A stretch of 64,000 bases of DNA from an uncultured Selenomonadaceae bacterium (GCA_902778455.1 CACYXR010000011.1:1-64000), one strand, 5' to 3'; positions 58,015 to 64,000 are shown, counted from the first letter of the stretch. Notes: generated by a model from the sequence alone, not told the origin. Translations and numbers: made by a program.

Positions 58015-58215
58015 AGCAATCCCTCGCAGGGTGGAGATTGATAATTCGAATCCAATAAAAAAAGTATACAAAAAACATATTGGAATTTTCCGATATTATA
58101 CCACGATTTATCAGCTTTCTCAATACGGAACTATCGGTGCTTCTCCAACAAATTCTATGATTTTTTCACTCCGATGTAAGTTTGCCATTTTAGTGATAAT
58201 TGCAACAGAAAAGTC

Positions 58216-58243
58216 TTGACAATGAGTTTTACGAATATAATAT
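58216..58243 (+). promoter_or_regulatory. Promoter of the Nif11-peptide operon (TTGACA-N16-TAATAT)
   Basis: -35 TTGACA (58216-58221); -10 TAATAT (58238-58243) with a 16-base spacer. The leader to the first precursor start is about 100 bases and holds no gene. The region is strongly AT-rich. Confidence 0.7.
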
Positions 58244-58349
58244 ATAAAGTAAATAGAAAATTTTCAAAAAGCGTCAATTTAGGGAGGCATGCCTTGTATT
58301 TATGAGTAGAAGGCAATGAAACATATTATTATACGAAGGAGGAATCATT

Positions 58350-58634
58350 GTGGCGGAAAAATCCAAAGGGACAAAATTCACAAAGGAACAGATCGAGAAG
58401 GCGATGCAGTGCAAGGACGCCGACGAACTCCTGGCGCTGGCGAAGTCCGAACTCTATGACATGACACGGGACGAGGCTGAGGCGTACATGGCGGAGATAC
58501 AGGACATAGAGCTGGACGGCGAGATGCTGAAAAAGGCGGCCGGAGGCGTTTGCTGGGATAATTGCCCAACCGAGGGAAGCTGTTCCCACCATGTCTGCGG
58601 GACCGTGGGCTGGGAAAATTTCAAGGGGTGTTAA
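58350..58634 (+). CDS. Nif11-leader RiPP precursor peptide 1
   Basis: 94 aa. Residues 1-66 are a Nif11-like leader: KEQIEKAMQCKDADELLALAK, MTRDEAEAYMAEIQDIELD, ending KKAAGG, the double-glycine site where leader peptides are removed. The core (67-94) has 28 residues and five cysteines at 68, 72, 78, 83 and 94, with the start VCWDNCPTEGSC and aromatic, Gly and His residues between. GTG start with AAGGAGG upstream. This is a ribosomal peptide destined for modification by enzymes of the locus. Confidence 0.8.
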   Translation: MAEKSKGTKFTKEQIEKAMQCKDADELLALAKSELYDMTRDEAEAYMAEIQDIELDGEMLKKAAGGVCWDNCPTEGSCSHHVCGTVGWENFKGC

Positions 58635-58652
58635 GGAAAGAAGGTTTGCACC

Positions 58653-58889
58653 ATGTCGATCAACAAGAACGAACTCACTAAAGCACAGGTCGCGAAGGCT
58701 ATGCAGTGCAAGACTGCCGACGAGCTGATGGCGCTGGCGAAGGGCTCGGGATTTGACATTACCAAAGAAGAAGCCGAGGCGTATATGGCGGAGCTGGCCG
58801 ACGTCGAGCTGGACGAAGCGCAGCTGCAGAAGGCGGCCGGCGGCGGATGCTACCCGGACTGCAAAAACGATTACTGCTTCGAAAACTGA
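58653..58889 (+). CDS. Nif11-leader RiPP precursor peptide 2
   Basis: 78 aa. The leader (1-64) is clearly paralogous to the first (AKAMQCKTADELMALAKGSG, KEEAEAYMAELADVELD, QKAAGG). The core is only 14 residues, GCYPDCKNDYCFEN, with cysteines 66, 70 and 75. Both cores open with C-x3-C containing an aromatic residue and an acidic or amide residue (CWDNC; CYPDC). It starts 18 bases after the first gene. Confidence 0.8.
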   Translation: MSINKNELTKAQVAKAMQCKTADELMALAKGSGFDITKEEAEAYMAELADVELDEAQLQKAAGGGCYPDCKNDYCFEN

Positions 58890-58898
58890 TAACACCAT

Positions 58899-58941
58899 GG
58901 AAAAGGGCCATGCAGGCGATTTCTCTGCATGGTCCTTTTCC
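58899..58941 (+). terminator. Hairpin after the precursor genes, possible attenuator
   Basis: GGAAAAGGGCCATGCAG / CTGCATGGTCCTTTTCC stem (58899-58941) without a true T-run (GTGTGTT follows). It may partly stop transcription or stabilise the precursor mRNA, giving more precursor than enzyme. Confidence 0.5.
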
Positions 58942-59033
58942 GTGTGTTATAATGGAAATTGCAGGCACTGCGGCGTAAGATGCAGGCGCGCTTATCCCAA
59001 CCGTTGGAAGTATGGAAAGAGGGGATGGGACCC

Positions 59034-61013
59034 ATGAAAAGCAAGGAAAAACGCGAAATCTATTTCTTCAGCCGTTTGGCGAAGTCGATTTACGAGGACG
59101 CCGAAGCGCTGGACGCGCTGCACTATTGCCGCCGTTTCACCGACATATTGAGGACTTTGCAATATTACGGCTATCTGGCGGACATGACGCTGAACGAATA
59201 TGTCGAGACCGCGCTGAAGGCGGCCGACGACCTCAAATACTTCCTCGACCCGGATACGGGCGATTTTTCCGAGGACGCGGTGTCCAACGCGGACGAGGCG
59301 GCGTTCAAAGGATCCTTTCAGCAGCACCACGACCTGATCCTGCAGCTGATAGGCATTTCCGACGGCCCGGCTCTCTTTCCCCTGATCGTGGAAGTGGAGA
59401 ACGGAAAGGTTCGCGGCAATCTGGAGCGCCTGCACCGTGTAGCGCAATGGTTCGGCATACCCTACGCCGCGTCCGCGTCGGGCGAAAACCGCTGGCGCAA
59501 GCCGCAGCCTGCGCCGCGGATCGAGCGCGTGCTGAACTGCACGAAGCCCGGCGAGCGGAACCTCCAAATCGCGTACGGCAAAACGGTCGGCGCAGAGGGC
59601 AGGCTGACCCTCAATATCTGCCGCCGCAATTCGCCGGATCGGGGACTGCCTGTCATGGTGTACTTCCATGGCGGCAATTTTCAGACCGGGCAGGCGGAGG
59701 AATGGCTGGGCAACAAGTTCAGCGAGTCGCTGAACGTCGTCCACGTCAGCGTGGAGTACCGTCTGGGGGCGCTGGGCTTCAATCCGCTCCCCGCGCTTCG
59801 GACCGGCGACGCGGAAGAGGACAGCGGCAATTTCGTGCTGCTGGACATGATCGCTGCGCTGCGGTGGGTGCAGCGGAATATCGCGGCCTTCGGCGGCGAC
59901 CCCGGCAACGTGACTGTCAGCGGTTATTCCGCCGGAGGACGCGCGATCGCGGTATTGTTGACCAGCCGCCTGGCCCGTGGGCTTTTTCATCGGGCCGTCT
60001 GCTTCAGCGCCGGCTTCCTGGTCTGCGAGCCGGAGCCTTCGCGCAGGATTTTCGCGGAGCGCTTCGCCCCTCTGGCGGTGGAGGACGGCGTAAAGAAATC
60101 AAAAGAGGAAGCGGAGGCATGGCTGCTTTCCGAAGCCGAGGAAGACCTGAAAACGGCGCGTCAGTGGCTTTACGGTCTGCCCGGCGCCCGCCTAGCCGGC
60201 ATTTTCCCGCCCGCGTGGGGGCGCATGGAGCTGTTCCCGATTTTCTTCCGGGACGGAACCGTGGTGCCGTCGGCGTCCTTTGACGATCCCGATATGAACC
60301 ACGTTCCGGTGCTCGTCTTTTACAGCACGGACGAGTTCAGCCTCCTGGCCGACGCCGATACCTGGTTCCGGCAGCGGCGGAAAGCGCAGACGCCGGAAAA
60401 TCCGGATGCGACGCTGGAACAGGATAAGGCCTTCAGTATAAAATACGGCAGCCTGATCTGGGGGGATTTCAATTCCCACCGGCTGGCGGAGAGCCTGTAC
60501 CCTCATCTGGGCGCGCCCATCTATATCGGGAAGTTCCATTACGGTCATGAGGCCAAGGATTTCGGCGAGGAATTTACCCGTCGGTACGGCGCCCTGCACG
60601 GCGTGTACCTGCCGTTCCTGACAGACCAATACAAGAGCCCGTGGAAGCGGGGCAACGATTTTTTCGAACATGCGGGGGCCGAGTATCTGGGCTCGCAGCT
60701 TTTCAGCTATATCGGCCAGTTCATGGATACCGGCGACCCGAACTTCGATGAAAGGGAAACGCAGTGGAAGGCGTGGACGCCGGAGCAGCAGTTTGAACTG
60801 TTTTTCGACGGCGACAGGCAGCGCGGCTATGTGAAGCCGGGCATGAACGAGTACAGCTTCGAGGAAGTGGCGGCCCGGTTTGACGCCGATACGTCGGTCT
60901 CGGATGAAAGCAAGGCGTTCATCGCCGGCCATGTTTTCAATCACCGCATTTTCAGCCGCGCGTGGGACGCCCGCTACGGGAATCCGCCCGATCCGATGCT
61001 GAGCAAACCGTGA
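59034..61013 (+). CDS. Type-B carboxylesterase family protein, cytoplasmic
   Basis: 659 aa alpha/beta hydrolase. An N-terminal extension of about 180 residues (helical, not part of the family) precedes the catalytic domain. Oxyanion loop VYFHGGNFQTG, nucleophile motif VSGYSAGGRA (GxSxG), a Glu in FYSTDEFSLL and His in ALHGVYLPFL complete the triad pattern. No signal peptide. ATG 59034 is used because GAGGGGA lies about 9 bases upstream. Its gene follows the two precursor genes, so it may act on the peptide or its product; that is inference. Confidence 0.75.
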   Translation: MKSKEKREIYFFSRLAKSIYEDAEALDALHYCRRFTDILRTLQYYGYLADMTLNEYVETALKAADDLKYFLDPDTGDFSEDAVSNADEAAFKGSFQQHHDLILQLIGISDGPALFPLIVEVENGKVRGNLERLHRVAQWFGIPYAASASGENRWRKPQPAPRIERVLNCTKPGERNLQIAYGKTVGAEGRLTLNICRRNSPDRGLPVMVYFHGGNFQTGQAEEWLGNKFSESLNVVHVSVEYRLGALGFNPLPALRTGDAEEDSGNFVLLDMIAALRWVQRNIAAFGGDPGNVTVSGYSAGGRAIAVLLTSRLARGLFHRAVCFSAGFLVCEPEPSRRIFAERFAPLAVEDGVKKSKEEAEAWLLSEAEEDLKTARQWLYGLPGARLAGIFPPAWGRMELFPIFFRDGTVVPSASFDDPDMNHVPVLVFYSTDEFSLLADADTWFRQRRKAQTPENPDATLEQDKAFSIKYGSLIWGDFNSHRLAESLYPHLGAPIYIGKFHYGHEAKDFGEEFTRRYGALHGVYLPFLTDQYKSPWKRGNDFFEHAGAEYLGSQLFSYIGQFMDTGDPNFDERETQWKAWTPEQQFELFFDGDRQRGYVKPGMNEYSFEEVAARFDADTSVSDESKAFIAGHVFNHRIFSRAWDARYGNPPDPMLSKP

Positions 61014-61038
61014 GATTAGACTATATCGTATAAGTATC

Positions 61039-61069
61039 AGCGCAGGGCTTCGGCTCTGCGTTTTTTCTT
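61039..61069 (+). terminator. Rho-independent terminator after the esterase
   Basis: CGCAGGGC-TTC-GGCTCTGCG stem (61041-61060) followed by TTTTTTCTTTTT, 26 bases after the esterase stop. Confidence 0.8.
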
Positions 61070-61143
61070 TTTGGGGAAGGAACCCGGGAACCGGGTGTAG
61101 AATATCTCATTGTCTATATGATGGGAAAGGGGATAAACGGTTT

Positions 61144-61740
61144 ATGAAAACGATGTCGGGAATGGCGGGCGCGGTCATATTGTGCGCGGGGATGCTGCTT
61201 TCTTTTTCCGCTTACGCAAACGGCGGCGAATATGAGGACAATATCGCTGCCGTGGATGCGTTCAAGGCGGCGGCTGTCAAAAACGTCGGGCACGGGAAGA
61301 AGGTTTATTTTGCAAGCCCGATGTTTAATCACGCGGAAAAGGAGTTCAATCTGAAAGTTACAAGAGTGCTTGAAGATTATGGCTATCAGGTCTTCCTGCC
61401 GCAGCGCGACGGCATTGAAGCCGCGACGCTGGAGGGCAAGTCGGAAGAAGAGATGATAAAGATGATTTTTGCGTTGGACTCCACAGAGGTAAAGAATGCG
61501 GATATCGTCTTTATGAATATCGACGGCCGGGTGCCCGATGAAGGGGCTTGCGTCGAGCTCGGCATGGCCTACGGTATCGGCAAGCGGTGCTATGGTTTCA
61601 AAACAGATACCCATTCCGTGGAATTGGGGCTGGACATGAATCCGATGATCAGCGGCTGCATGATCAAGTTTTTCAAGAATTATGACGGTGATCGGCTGAT
61701 AGAGGAAATACAGCGGTACTTGTCCGAGAACGCGCTTTAA
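61144..61740 (+). CDS. Secreted nucleoside 2-deoxyribosyltransferase-like protein
   Basis: 198 aa. A signal peptide (about 1-25, ending SAYANGG) precedes a deoxyribosyltransferase-type domain: VYFASPMFNHAEKEF, LEDYGYQVFLPQRDGI, ADIVFMNIDGRVPDEGACVELGMAYGIGKRCYGF. The Asp-Gly and Glu in ACVELGMAY match the catalytic Asp/Glu of the family, which swaps bases between deoxynucleosides. A secreted member is odd. It could instead be an exported sugar-nucleotide or peptide-acting relative. Start follows AAAGGGG. Confidence 0.7.
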   Translation: MKTMSGMAGAVILCAGMLLSFSAYANGGEYEDNIAAVDAFKAAAVKNVGHGKKVYFASPMFNHAEKEFNLKVTRVLEDYGYQVFLPQRDGIEAATLEGKSEEEMIKMIFALDSTEVKNADIVFMNIDGRVPDEGACVELGMAYGIGKRCYGFKTDTHSVELGLDMNPMISGCMIKFFKNYDGDRLIEEIQRYLSENAL

Positions 61741-61787
61741 GAGGTATTTGTATTGGCGAATTGATTCCAACAAAGGGAGGTATTTTG

Positions 61788-63608
61788 ATGAATCGTTTGA
61801 AATTTTCAGGATCGTGGAAGAAAAGGCTGGCGGCGTCCTTGCTGCCTCTTTCCGTGCTGTTGGCGGCGCCTGCGGACGTCCTTCCTCAGACCGGGCAGAG
61901 TCTCGTCAGTGCCGCAGCGGCGATGGAACAAGAGACGGAGGGACGGGAATTGAGTGCGACGGAAGAGCAGCCGAAGGCGATCCATGAGGCGAAGGAACTG
62001 TTGAGAGCGCAATACGGCGAGAACAGACAGATCACCGACGGAAATTATGACAAAGCACTGGCCGTCAAGTGCGTAAACGGCACCTTCGTCGGCAGGAAGA
62101 CGGAGAATATCATCGCGTACAGGGGCATTCCCTTTGCCGGCAAACCGCCCGTCGGGGAACTGCGCTGGAAAGCGCCGGTGGACGTCGTGGCCGACGACGG
62201 TATATATGAGGCGTATTACAATGCGAAAAGCGCTTACGGGAATGAGCAGTTGGAAACAGGTTCTCTTTTCTATCAGGATGAAGACTGCCTGTATCTGAAT
62301 ATATGGAAGGCGGATGAAGCGTCTTTGTCGGCGGACGCAAAAGCGGCGCATCCGGCGCCTGCGTCCGCACTAGCGCATCCATGCGCGTCGAAGAAGCCGG
62401 TCATGGTTTGGATCCACGGCGGCGCTTTTGAGGCGGGCGGGACGGTGGACCCGATGTTCGACTGCCACGATTTCGTGAAAGAGAACCCGGACGTCATCGT
62501 CGTCACCATCGCATATCGGCTCGGACCTTTCGGTTTCCTGCACCTGTCCCACCTGCCGGACGGCAAAGATTACCCGGACGCGCAGAACCTGGGGCTCATG
62601 GATCAGATGATAGCTTTGAAGTGGGTGCATGAAAACATCGCGGGCTTCGGCGGCGATCCCGGCAATGTGACCATCTTCGGCGAGTCCGCCGGCGCCGCAA
62701 GCTGTACCCTGCTTCCGCTGATGAAAGGCTCCCATGCGTATTTCAAGCGGGTCATTGCCCAGAGCGGTTCCCCGAACCAGACGAGATCCGCCGAAGAAGC
62801 CGCCGGCTGCACGAATGAACTGATGGAAATCCTCGGCTGCAAGACCGCTGCCGATTTGCAGAAGGTCGACGCCCGGAAGATTTTCGAGGCGTCAGCCGTG
62901 CTTTCGATGCGTCAATTCCCGGAAAGGGACGGAAGCCATTTGCCTTTGGATACCTATGAGGCATACGCGAACGGCGCAGCGAAGGATATAAATATTCTTC
63001 AGGGCTGCAACAAAGATGAATTTGACTTTTTCGTGAGCGGCTTCGGCGTGGAAGGGTTCCAACAGTGGGCCGCCGAACGCAAGGCGAGGGGGCTTGGCAA
63101 GCTGTCGGATGAGGAGAAAAAGCTTATCGAGAGCTTCCAAAGTGATATCAAGGGAGAAAGCTGGGAACGGGACAGCCGTCTGTTCAGCCAGGTCTGGTTT
63201 ATAGCGCCGGTATTCAGGCTGTCGGAGGCCCAGACGAAGGCCGGCGGTAAATCGTACACCTATTATTTCACGCCGGAATCTTCGGTTCCGATCATAAAAT
63301 GCGGACATTCGATCGAGCTTGCGTCCGTATTCAATCACCCGGAGATGACCGGCGACACGGGGAGAGTCTTTGACGCAGCCTTCTCAAAGACCATGCGCAG
63401 GATGTGGGTCCAGTTCGCCAAGACTGGCAATCCGTCGCTGAGCGCGGACATCTCCCCGGACGGCAAGGCGAAGGAGTGGCCGCTTTACGACTTGAAGGAC
63501 AGGAAGGTGATGGTGTTGGACGAGTTCAACATCCATCCCGAAAAAGAATCCGAGAGAAAGATCGTGGATTGGGACAGAACCTATTTCCTGACCAAAACGA
63601 TGTTCTGA
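61788..63608 (+). CDS. Secreted type-B carboxylesterase (PnbA family)
   Basis: 606 aa. An N-terminal signal peptide or anchor (MNRLKFSGSWKKRLAASLLPLSVLLAAP) is followed by a helical linker and the esterase domain from about residue 75. Catalytic Ser is in TIFGESAGAASC, Glu in CNKDEFDFF, His in IIKCGHSIELASVF; the oxyanion loop is VWIHGGAFEAG. It hydrolyses ester bonds outside the cytoplasm. ATG 61788 is fixed by GGGAGGT about 9 bases upstream. It shares fold but little sequence with the cytoplasmic esterase at 59034. Confidence 0.85.
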   Translation: MNRLKFSGSWKKRLAASLLPLSVLLAAPADVLPQTGQSLVSAAAAMEQETEGRELSATEEQPKAIHEAKELLRAQYGENRQITDGNYDKALAVKCVNGTFVGRKTENIIAYRGIPFAGKPPVGELRWKAPVDVVADDGIYEAYYNAKSAYGNEQLETGSLFYQDEDCLYLNIWKADEASLSADAKAAHPAPASALAHPCASKKPVMVWIHGGAFEAGGTVDPMFDCHDFVKENPDVIVVTIAYRLGPFGFLHLSHLPDGKDYPDAQNLGLMDQMIALKWVHENIAGFGGDPGNVTIFGESAGAASCTLLPLMKGSHAYFKRVIAQSGSPNQTRSAEEAAGCTNELMEILGCKTAADLQKVDARKIFEASAVLSMRQFPERDGSHLPLDTYEAYANGAAKDINILQGCNKDEFDFFVSGFGVEGFQQWAAERKARGLGKLSDEEKKLIESFQSDIKGESWERDSRLFSQVWFIAPVFRLSEAQTKAGGKSYTYYFTPESSVPIIKCGHSIELASVFNHPEMTGDTGRVFDAAFSKTMRRMWVQFAKTGNPSLSADISPDGKAKEWPLYDLKDRKVMVLDEFNIHPEKESERKIVDWDRTYFLTKTMF

Positions 63609-63670
63609 GACATTATTTGCTGAAGCAACCTGGCGCAAGCGCCCTCGGGGGAAGGCAAGATGAGCGAATT

Positions 63671-63838
63671 TTAAGGAAGCACTGATTAAGTCAAGTCGTG
63701 GCCCTGTCGAGGGATTTTTTCGTCAGGCAAGGAAAAGTGCTCGAAGTCGTAGCAGAGCTACGTCGAGAGCACTTTGACGCAGCATGACGGAAAAAGACCC
63801 GTCAGGGGCGCGGCGGGACTTATTCAGTGCTTCCTTAA
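63671..63838. mobile_element. 168-bp palindromic MITE-like element
   Basis: Ends are perfect inverted repeats, TTAAGGAAGCACTGA...TCAGTGCTTCCTTAA, and the inner sequence is complementary almost throughout (AAGTGCTCG..GTAGCAGAGC region near the middle; GACTTA/TAAGTC near the ends). The whole folds into one long hairpin. It codes for nothing. This is the form of a non-autonomous transposable element; a partner transposase would be elsewhere. Between 63609 and 63670 is only a half of a GC-rich palindromic repeat. Confidence 0.75.
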
Positions 63839-63936
63839 TGGTCGAAGAAATAAACAGGAAGGATTCGTCTTGGGTTATACATTTGGGAAGTTTGAGTATC
63901 TATATTTGACAAAGTTTGAAAAAAGGAGACGGATGT

Positions 63937-64000
63937 ATGCAAGAGTCAATGATAGACGTCTGTTTCGTTTCGATGCCGTTCTCCGACGTCACGATGCCTT
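63937..64000 (+). CDS. Start of a RiPP-maturation radical SAM protein (partial)
   Basis: Only the first 21 codons are in the window: MQESMIDVCFVSMPFSDVTMP. The VCFVSMPFSDVxxP pattern matches the start of radical SAM enzymes of the RiPP maturation family with an N-terminal B12-binding-like domain. ATG is set by AAAAAGGAGAC upstream. Its position after Nif11-leader genes makes it the likely peptide-modifying enzyme. The CxxxCxxC motif is beyond the edge. Confidence 0.55.
   Translation, partial: MQESMIDVCFVSMPFSDVTMP

Follow-up and report, generated by a model that had tools for sequence, protein, structure and literature searches.

The question raised by this locus is which enzyme, if any, matures two small peptides encoded near the end of the window, the 64,000-base stretch of DNA analysed here (bases 1-64000 of contig C11, which has 78,772 bases). 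The window comes from G000, the genome (2.6 Mb, 34 contigs) of an uncultured Selenomonadaceae bacterium, and its two peptide genes are followed by two esterase genes, a deoxyribosyltransferase-like gene and the first codons of a radical SAM (S-adenosylmethionine) gene. The initial annotation had joined all of these into one pathway for ribosomally synthesized and post-translationally modified peptides (RiPPs). We searched G000, a genus comparison set of 11 genomes and a family set of 189 genomes, family by family and stretch by stretch. Our analysis favours another reading, which we consider probable though far from certain: the two genes would belong to a dispersed precursor family that is matured in trans by a SPASM enzyme encoded on contig C1 and exported by an NHLM system.

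Precursor 1 (58350-58634, plus strand) starts with GTG and has 94 aa, with a 28-residue core, VCWDNCPTEGSCSHHVCGTVGWENFKGC; precursor 2 (58653-58889, plus strand) has 78 aa and a 14-residue core, GCYPDCKNDYCFEN. In both open reading frames (ORFs) the common leader is closed by AAGG and a variable core then follows, and the core lengths and Cys positions are exactly those given by the initial annotation. Peptide 2 scored 35.9 bits with TIGR03798 (cut-off 32.3) and barely passed PF07862 (23.9 bits, cut-off 23.8), while peptide 1 taken alone reached neither cut-off, with 20.9 and 17.6 bits. Peptide 1 nevertheless aligns with the family along the whole leader, and it is clearly a member of the Nif11 family despite these scores because its homology is evident via its relatives. 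The NHLP leader model (TIGR03793) gave no match to the window peptides; TIGR03798 matched instead. The description of both as RiPP-type precursors with Nif11 leaders and Cys cores is upheld by profiles, family alignment and relatives, the single-sequence profile check having succeeded for peptide 2 and failed for peptide 1.

With peptide 2 we found 109 matches, nearly all via the leader, in the 11 genus genomes, 21 of them in G000. These matches place both peptides in a Nif11-leader family that is dispersed over the genomes of a rumen Selenomonadaceae genus. The core GCYPDCKNDYCFEN is unchanged in seven copies from six genomes, and one further copy reads GCYPDCDKDYCFEN. Three genomes (including G006:C2 and G035:C11) have the core VCWDNCPTEGSCSHHVCGTVGWENFKGC without change, and a fourth (G101:C149) has a variant. 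Pairwise codon comparison gave synonymous/nonsynonymous counts of 33/14 for the GCYPDC cores vs 181/254 for their leaders, and of 51/18 for the VCW-group cores vs 70/90 for theirs, where the nonsynonymous core differences all stem from a single variant copy per group. The cores thus show an excess of synonymous and the leaders an excess of nonsynonymous differences, so that conservation is stronger in the core than in the leader. Such tight conservation differs from what would be expected of freely varying cores. Judged from these sequence comparisons, both peptides are genuine and under selection.

A promoter-like element of about 58 bp (58257-58314, plus strand), located upstream of the two genes, recurs at other dispersed Nif11 precursors. 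Its pattern, GTCAATTT-N9-TG-NN-TTGTATTTAT, lies at 58273-58303. Alignment of 27 copies showed that the GTCAA-TT block is invariant and is followed at fixed spacing by a nearly invariant TG-NN-TTGTAT block. When up to two mismatches were allowed, the pattern occurred six times in the 2.6 Mb of G000, in every case (6/6) directly in front of a Nif11 precursor. In 8 of the 11 genus genomes it occurred 39 times, a count that includes a few occurrences outside the precursor check (e.g. G101:C37 and G006:C40). A control search with the reversed pattern gave 0 matches. The position of the element suggests that it may be a promoter or an operator. Also upstream of the precursors is a sigma-70-like promoter match (TTGACA-16-TAATAT; 58216-58243, plus strand), which is a consensus match only. 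At 68.7-71.4 kb of the same contig (G000:C11:68683-71357, minus strand), about nine Nif11-leader ORFs form an array that lacks the 58-bp element; its cores are unlike and mostly Cys-poor, and some of its ORFs are overlapping or truncated. In G006, MITE-like repeats (MITE, miniature inverted-repeat transposable element) resembling that of the window separate the precursor from its upstream element.

The candidate maturase is a radical SAM/SPASM gene at G000:C1:181573-183261, which was found by tblastn between the C1 precursors, in a region that also holds long antisense ORFs, and which is the sole copy in the genome. Its product contains CX3CX2C at residues 112-119 and the full SPASM Cys pattern. 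The gene is present in 10 of the 11 genus genomes, including G006, and in 28 of the 189 family genomes, from six genera. Of 30 loci examined, from six genera, 26 have a Nif11 leader within 1.5 kb of it, while about 0.04 per locus would be expected by chance (estimated from 21 matches in 2.6 Mb). The core types of the window are among these neighbours: in G068:C104, GCYPDCKNDYCFEN is encoded directly downstream of it and preceded by the same upstream element; a core of the precursor 1 type, VCWTNCPKEAECPGHVCGTVGWENFKGC, is beside it in G101:C149; and related cores, some with in-frame stops, are beside it in G029 and G051. It is mainly because Nif11 precursors, including those with the core types of the window, lie beside it that we name this enzyme a maturase. 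A CX3CX2C radical SAM enzyme with a SPASM domain, linked to precursors as in other SPASM-matured RiPPs, is thus found in this genome, and its action on the window peptides would be in trans. The DNA at 58193-58297 of the window is 94% identical to that in front of the SPASM gene in G068:C104. From this match we considered whether the window had once held, and then lost, a SPASM gene, and rejected the idea, as the element precedes many other precursors.

What the enzyme might do was approached through 62 non-redundant Cys cores. Asp or Glu was found at Cys+3 in 37 of 145 cases, where 21.7 were expected, and none of 1000 shuffles reached this number; aromatic residues and Pro were also enriched at Cys+1. 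The shuffles preserved the Cys positions and the core composition, and shared ancestry only in part. PapB, a related SPASM enzyme, forms Cys-Xn-Asp/Glu thioethers with n = 0-6 (PMC9413430). The enrichment at Cys+3, together with this range of spacing, therefore makes a Cys-to-Asp/Glu thioether the best guess, and we put the chance of such a ranthipeptide-like cross-link at roughly one in three. No match in G000 was obtained for a LanC-like protein (PF05147), as would be expected for a LanM system, or for YcaO (PF02624), as would be expected for a thiazole/oxazole-modified microcin (TOMM) system, and the lanthipeptide and azole routes were ruled out on these grounds.

Exporters with a C39 peptidase are located on C1, C14 and C19. 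The NHLM models recognise the pair at C1:192667-197649 and the one on C19; the former lies about 9 kb away from the precursors clustered on C1. The initial annotation had proposed looking for an ABC peptidase/exporter past the end of the window, and none is present in the locus itself. These exporters would also serve peptides that are not enzymatically modified at all, that is, disulfide-bonded products with a Gly-Gly leader, resembling class II bacteriocins or signals and secreted through the NHLM C39 transporters. Such an explanation suits the many family precursors that are orphans with no enzyme adjoining, as well as those cores that have no Cys (KAPGGGDKSIPPESRY). It is at odds with the strong synteny between the SPASM maturase and the Cys-core members, and with the specific enrichment of acidic residues at Cys+3 and aromatic residues at Cys+1, and we regard it as unlikely.

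The mechanism that we propose for the SPASM-matured family is as follows. Each precursor locus would be a small transcription unit, many with a dedicated promoter-like element. The leader would be recognised in trans by the maturase from G000:C1:181573-183261, which would modify the core Cys residues; the products would most likely be thioether rings that link Cys to Asp/Glu with C-x2-[DE] or similar spacing. The C39 peptidase of an NHLM exporter, that at C1:192667-197649 or alternatively its twin on C19, would then cut after Gly-Gly, and the core would be exported.

Several points weigh against this mechanism. It was built from sequence comparisons (family membership, core conservation, the shared element, the synteny of maturase and precursors, and the exporters), and its steps are predictions from them. 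The maturase is on another contig than the window peptides, so that its action on them would have to be in trans. Its best NCBIfam matches are maturases of Cys-rich peptides, all far below cut-off (126 of 600 bits for the best), and at member level it matches no characterised maturase; two SPASM members scored 84.7 and 94.4 bits with the PapB family NF047865, below its cut-off of 340. In other genera, stops interrupt some of the window-type cores that are linked to the maturase, and the maturase of G068 is frameshifted near its N terminus. The motif statistics are indicative only, because the cores are not wholly independent. Finally, a TIGR03975 paralogue also adjoins the C1 precursors, and other maturases are possible.

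This paralogue allows for a two-step maturation on C1, in which the SPASM enzyme and the adjacent TIGR03975 enzyme both act on the Nif11 cores, so that a cross-link would be combined with C-methylation. Both genes are found in the C1 precursor cluster and again in G106:C74, and a degraded TIGR03975 remnant follows the SPASM gene in G055:C60. Yet the precursors persist in G006 and G055, where the TIGR03975 gene has been lost or has decayed, and in G035 and G101, where it is located apart from them. We consider a second step of this kind very improbable.

The remaining candidate is the radical SAM gene of the window itself. Its first codons are at 63937-64000 (plus strand; the start is 63937 or 63916), and the gene, of the B12 type, continues to G000:C11:65832. 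On the extended sequence it scored 500.8 bits with TIGR03975 (cut-off 281.85), so the prediction of a RiPP-type radical SAM gene across position 64,000 was right, while the expected C-x3-C-x2-C motif turned out to be C-x7-C-x2-C (GCWWGRNKPCTFCG). No solved structure matching the TIGR03975 protein by sequence was found. Its relatives come from rumen Selenomonadaceae, several of them labelled Schwartzia. Those in other genomes of the genus (70-80%) belong to proteusin clusters, which also hold NHLP precursors, a PoyD-type epimerase and NHLM exporters. In our tree the C11 gene grouped with these proteusin-cluster enzymes, apart from the C1 paralogue; the C1 clade was well supported, some inner forks were weak and the outgroup branch was long. 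Among the genomes seen, G000 alone has a TIGR03975 gene of the C11 type close to such precursors. In G006, for which a completeness of 100% is listed, both core types are unchanged and no full-length TIGR03975 gene was found. A C-terminal remnant, closer to the C1 type, adjoins a dicarboxylate transporter there, at a locus away from the precursors. After this check of relatives we lowered the C11 gene as a candidate; it is of proteusin type and probably not the maturase of the window peptides.

Clusters combining TIGR03975, a PoyD epimerase, NHLP precursors with Val/Ala/Thr-rich cores and NHLM exporters, in a polytheonamide-like layout, were seen in rumen Selenomonadaceae at L028, L031, L034, G035:C25, G096:C106 and G106:C8. 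The gene at C11:63937 is the only proteusin-type radical SAM found in G000, and the genome also has an orphan NHLP-leader precursor (G000:C29:13498-14025, minus strand).

The genes between precursor 2 and this radical SAM gene bear on the same issue. A terminator-like hairpin of 20 bp with flanking A4/T4 (58897-58943, plus strand) separates precursor 2 from esterase 1 and is present in all five genomes compared (G000 and four others); termination there would be a presumption, because there is no long T run. Esterase 1 (59034-61013, plus strand) is a cytoplasmic-looking type-B carboxylesterase of 659 aa (PF00135), which probably starts at the ATG at 59034, because a longer 5' reading hits stops in two relatives. 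Its orthologues (93-95%) lie beside precursor 2 in G006, G035, G055 and G068, so that the two adjoin in 5/5 genus genomes with a full-length esterase 1. No esterase adjoins a second peptide 2 copy (G006:C2), and distant relatives of esterase 1 in other genera (58-63%) have no Nif11 leader within the 1.5 kb or less that was examined. As the shared order comes from five genomes of one genus, descent alone may account for it. Any role of esterase 1, a conserved neighbour of precursor 2, is putative.

The next gene encodes a nucleoside 2-deoxyribosyltransferase-like protein (61144-61740, plus strand; PF05014) with a signal-peptide-like N terminus. A remnant of it was found in G068, and it was not found in G006, G035 or G055; it is probably outside the peptide system. 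Esterase 2 (61788-63608, plus strand), a secreted-looking type-B carboxylesterase of 606 aa (PF00135), is beside esterase 1 in G006:C25 and G068:C104 and not in G035 or G055, that is, in two of four relatives. Between it and the radical SAM gene lies a MITE-like repeat (63672-63842), an imperfect palindrome of about 170 bp with 42 matches in G000.

A compact pathway, in which the downstream TIGR03975 enzyme matures both peptides and the esterases tailor them, would be natural for genes on one strand within 5 kb. It also gains from the fact that TIGR03975 is a family of RiPP maturation, whose divergent paralogue on C1 adjoins Nif11 precursors, and from the synteny of esterase 1 with peptide 2. 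The proteusin-type grouping of the C11 enzyme (with some forks weakly supported), the intact cores of G006 beside a mere remnant of TIGR03975, the intervening repeat and terminator-like hairpins, and the lack of conservation of the deoxyribosyltransferase all argue against it, and we consider it quite unlikely. The esterases and the deoxyribosyltransferase-like protein of the initial annotation are real by profile match, and its single pathway is not borne out: among relatives, the conserved gene set is limited to esterase 1 with peptide 2. If the trans mechanism holds, the 63937 gene and the deoxyribosyltransferase would be neighbours and not partners.

The prochlorosins and other Nif11 (N11P) expansions of cyanobacteria also have many paralogous precursors, served by a LanM lanthionine synthetase (PMC2887384; PMC10783134). 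Our family resembles them in its many Nif11-leader paralogues, its Gly-Gly site, its precursors located away from the enzyme, and the expectation of one enzyme for many cores. It differs in that its precursors are linked to a radical SAM/SPASM protein in a genome with no LanC-like protein, that orthologous cores are conserved between species, and that a promoter-like element marks many precursors. With ranthipeptide and other Cys-rich SPASM systems (PapB NF047865, CefB NF038107, TIGR04463, Clo7bot TIGR04334), the families behind its best NCBIfam matches, it shares a SPASM maturase and Cys/Asp-Glu substrates; unlike them, it has Nif11 leaders, a maturase often away from the precursor and matches far below the cut-offs, and its spacing is Cys-x2-Asp/Glu vs Cys-x3-Asp/Glu in ranthipeptide-type systems. 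Only the 63937 radical SAM gene recalls the proteusin clusters (NHLP TIGR03793, PoyD TIGR04517, rSAM TIGR03975, NHLM), which relatives hold in full; the window has neither an NHLP precursor nor a PoyD gene, and its peptides have Nif11 leaders. The layout would thus be comparable to that of the prochlorosins and the enzyme type to that of SPASM-matured peptides, with membership demonstrated for neither. In the literature searched, we found no rumen Selenomonas RiPPs with a radical SAM enzyme.

Tentatively, and with somewhat less confidence than doubt, the data may describe a genome-wide regulon of about 20 scattered peptides with one promoter signal, one unplaced SPASM family acting in trans and cores kept across species. 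If so, this would be a radical SAM counterpart of the prochlorosins, with cores conserved instead of freely varying. If it is true that the SPASM enzyme serves about 20 unlike cores, it would be a cross-linking catalyst of natural promiscuity, and the cores would already form a panel of substrates for it. Genome mining based on clusters would pair the window peptides with the wrong enzyme, and a shared element combined with synteny in relatives offers a route to orphan RiPP precursors and their remote maturase. The conservation of the cores suggests that the peptides have a defined role in rumen bacteria.

Other arrangements of the Nif11 leader were also seen. At G000:C1:183970-184674 (minus strand), a Nif11 leader and a short Cys core are fused to a Hint domain, and such fusions also occur at G035:C28, G055:C60, G006:C77, G090:C112, G096:C43 and G106:C112. 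In the literature searched, no paper paired Nif11 with Hint. The Hint part scored 31.8 bits with PF01079 and 28.8 bits with PF13403, each slightly above cut-off. Its first Cys is conserved, the His of TxxH is replaced by Ser or Gln in 7/7, and no C-terminal His-Asn was seen. A second SPASM radical SAM gene, at G000:C19:19045-22411 (minus strand), adjoins Nif11 precursors that are longer and full-length, with a GGS-x-GP motif at the end of the core, and the C19 NHLM exporter is nearby.

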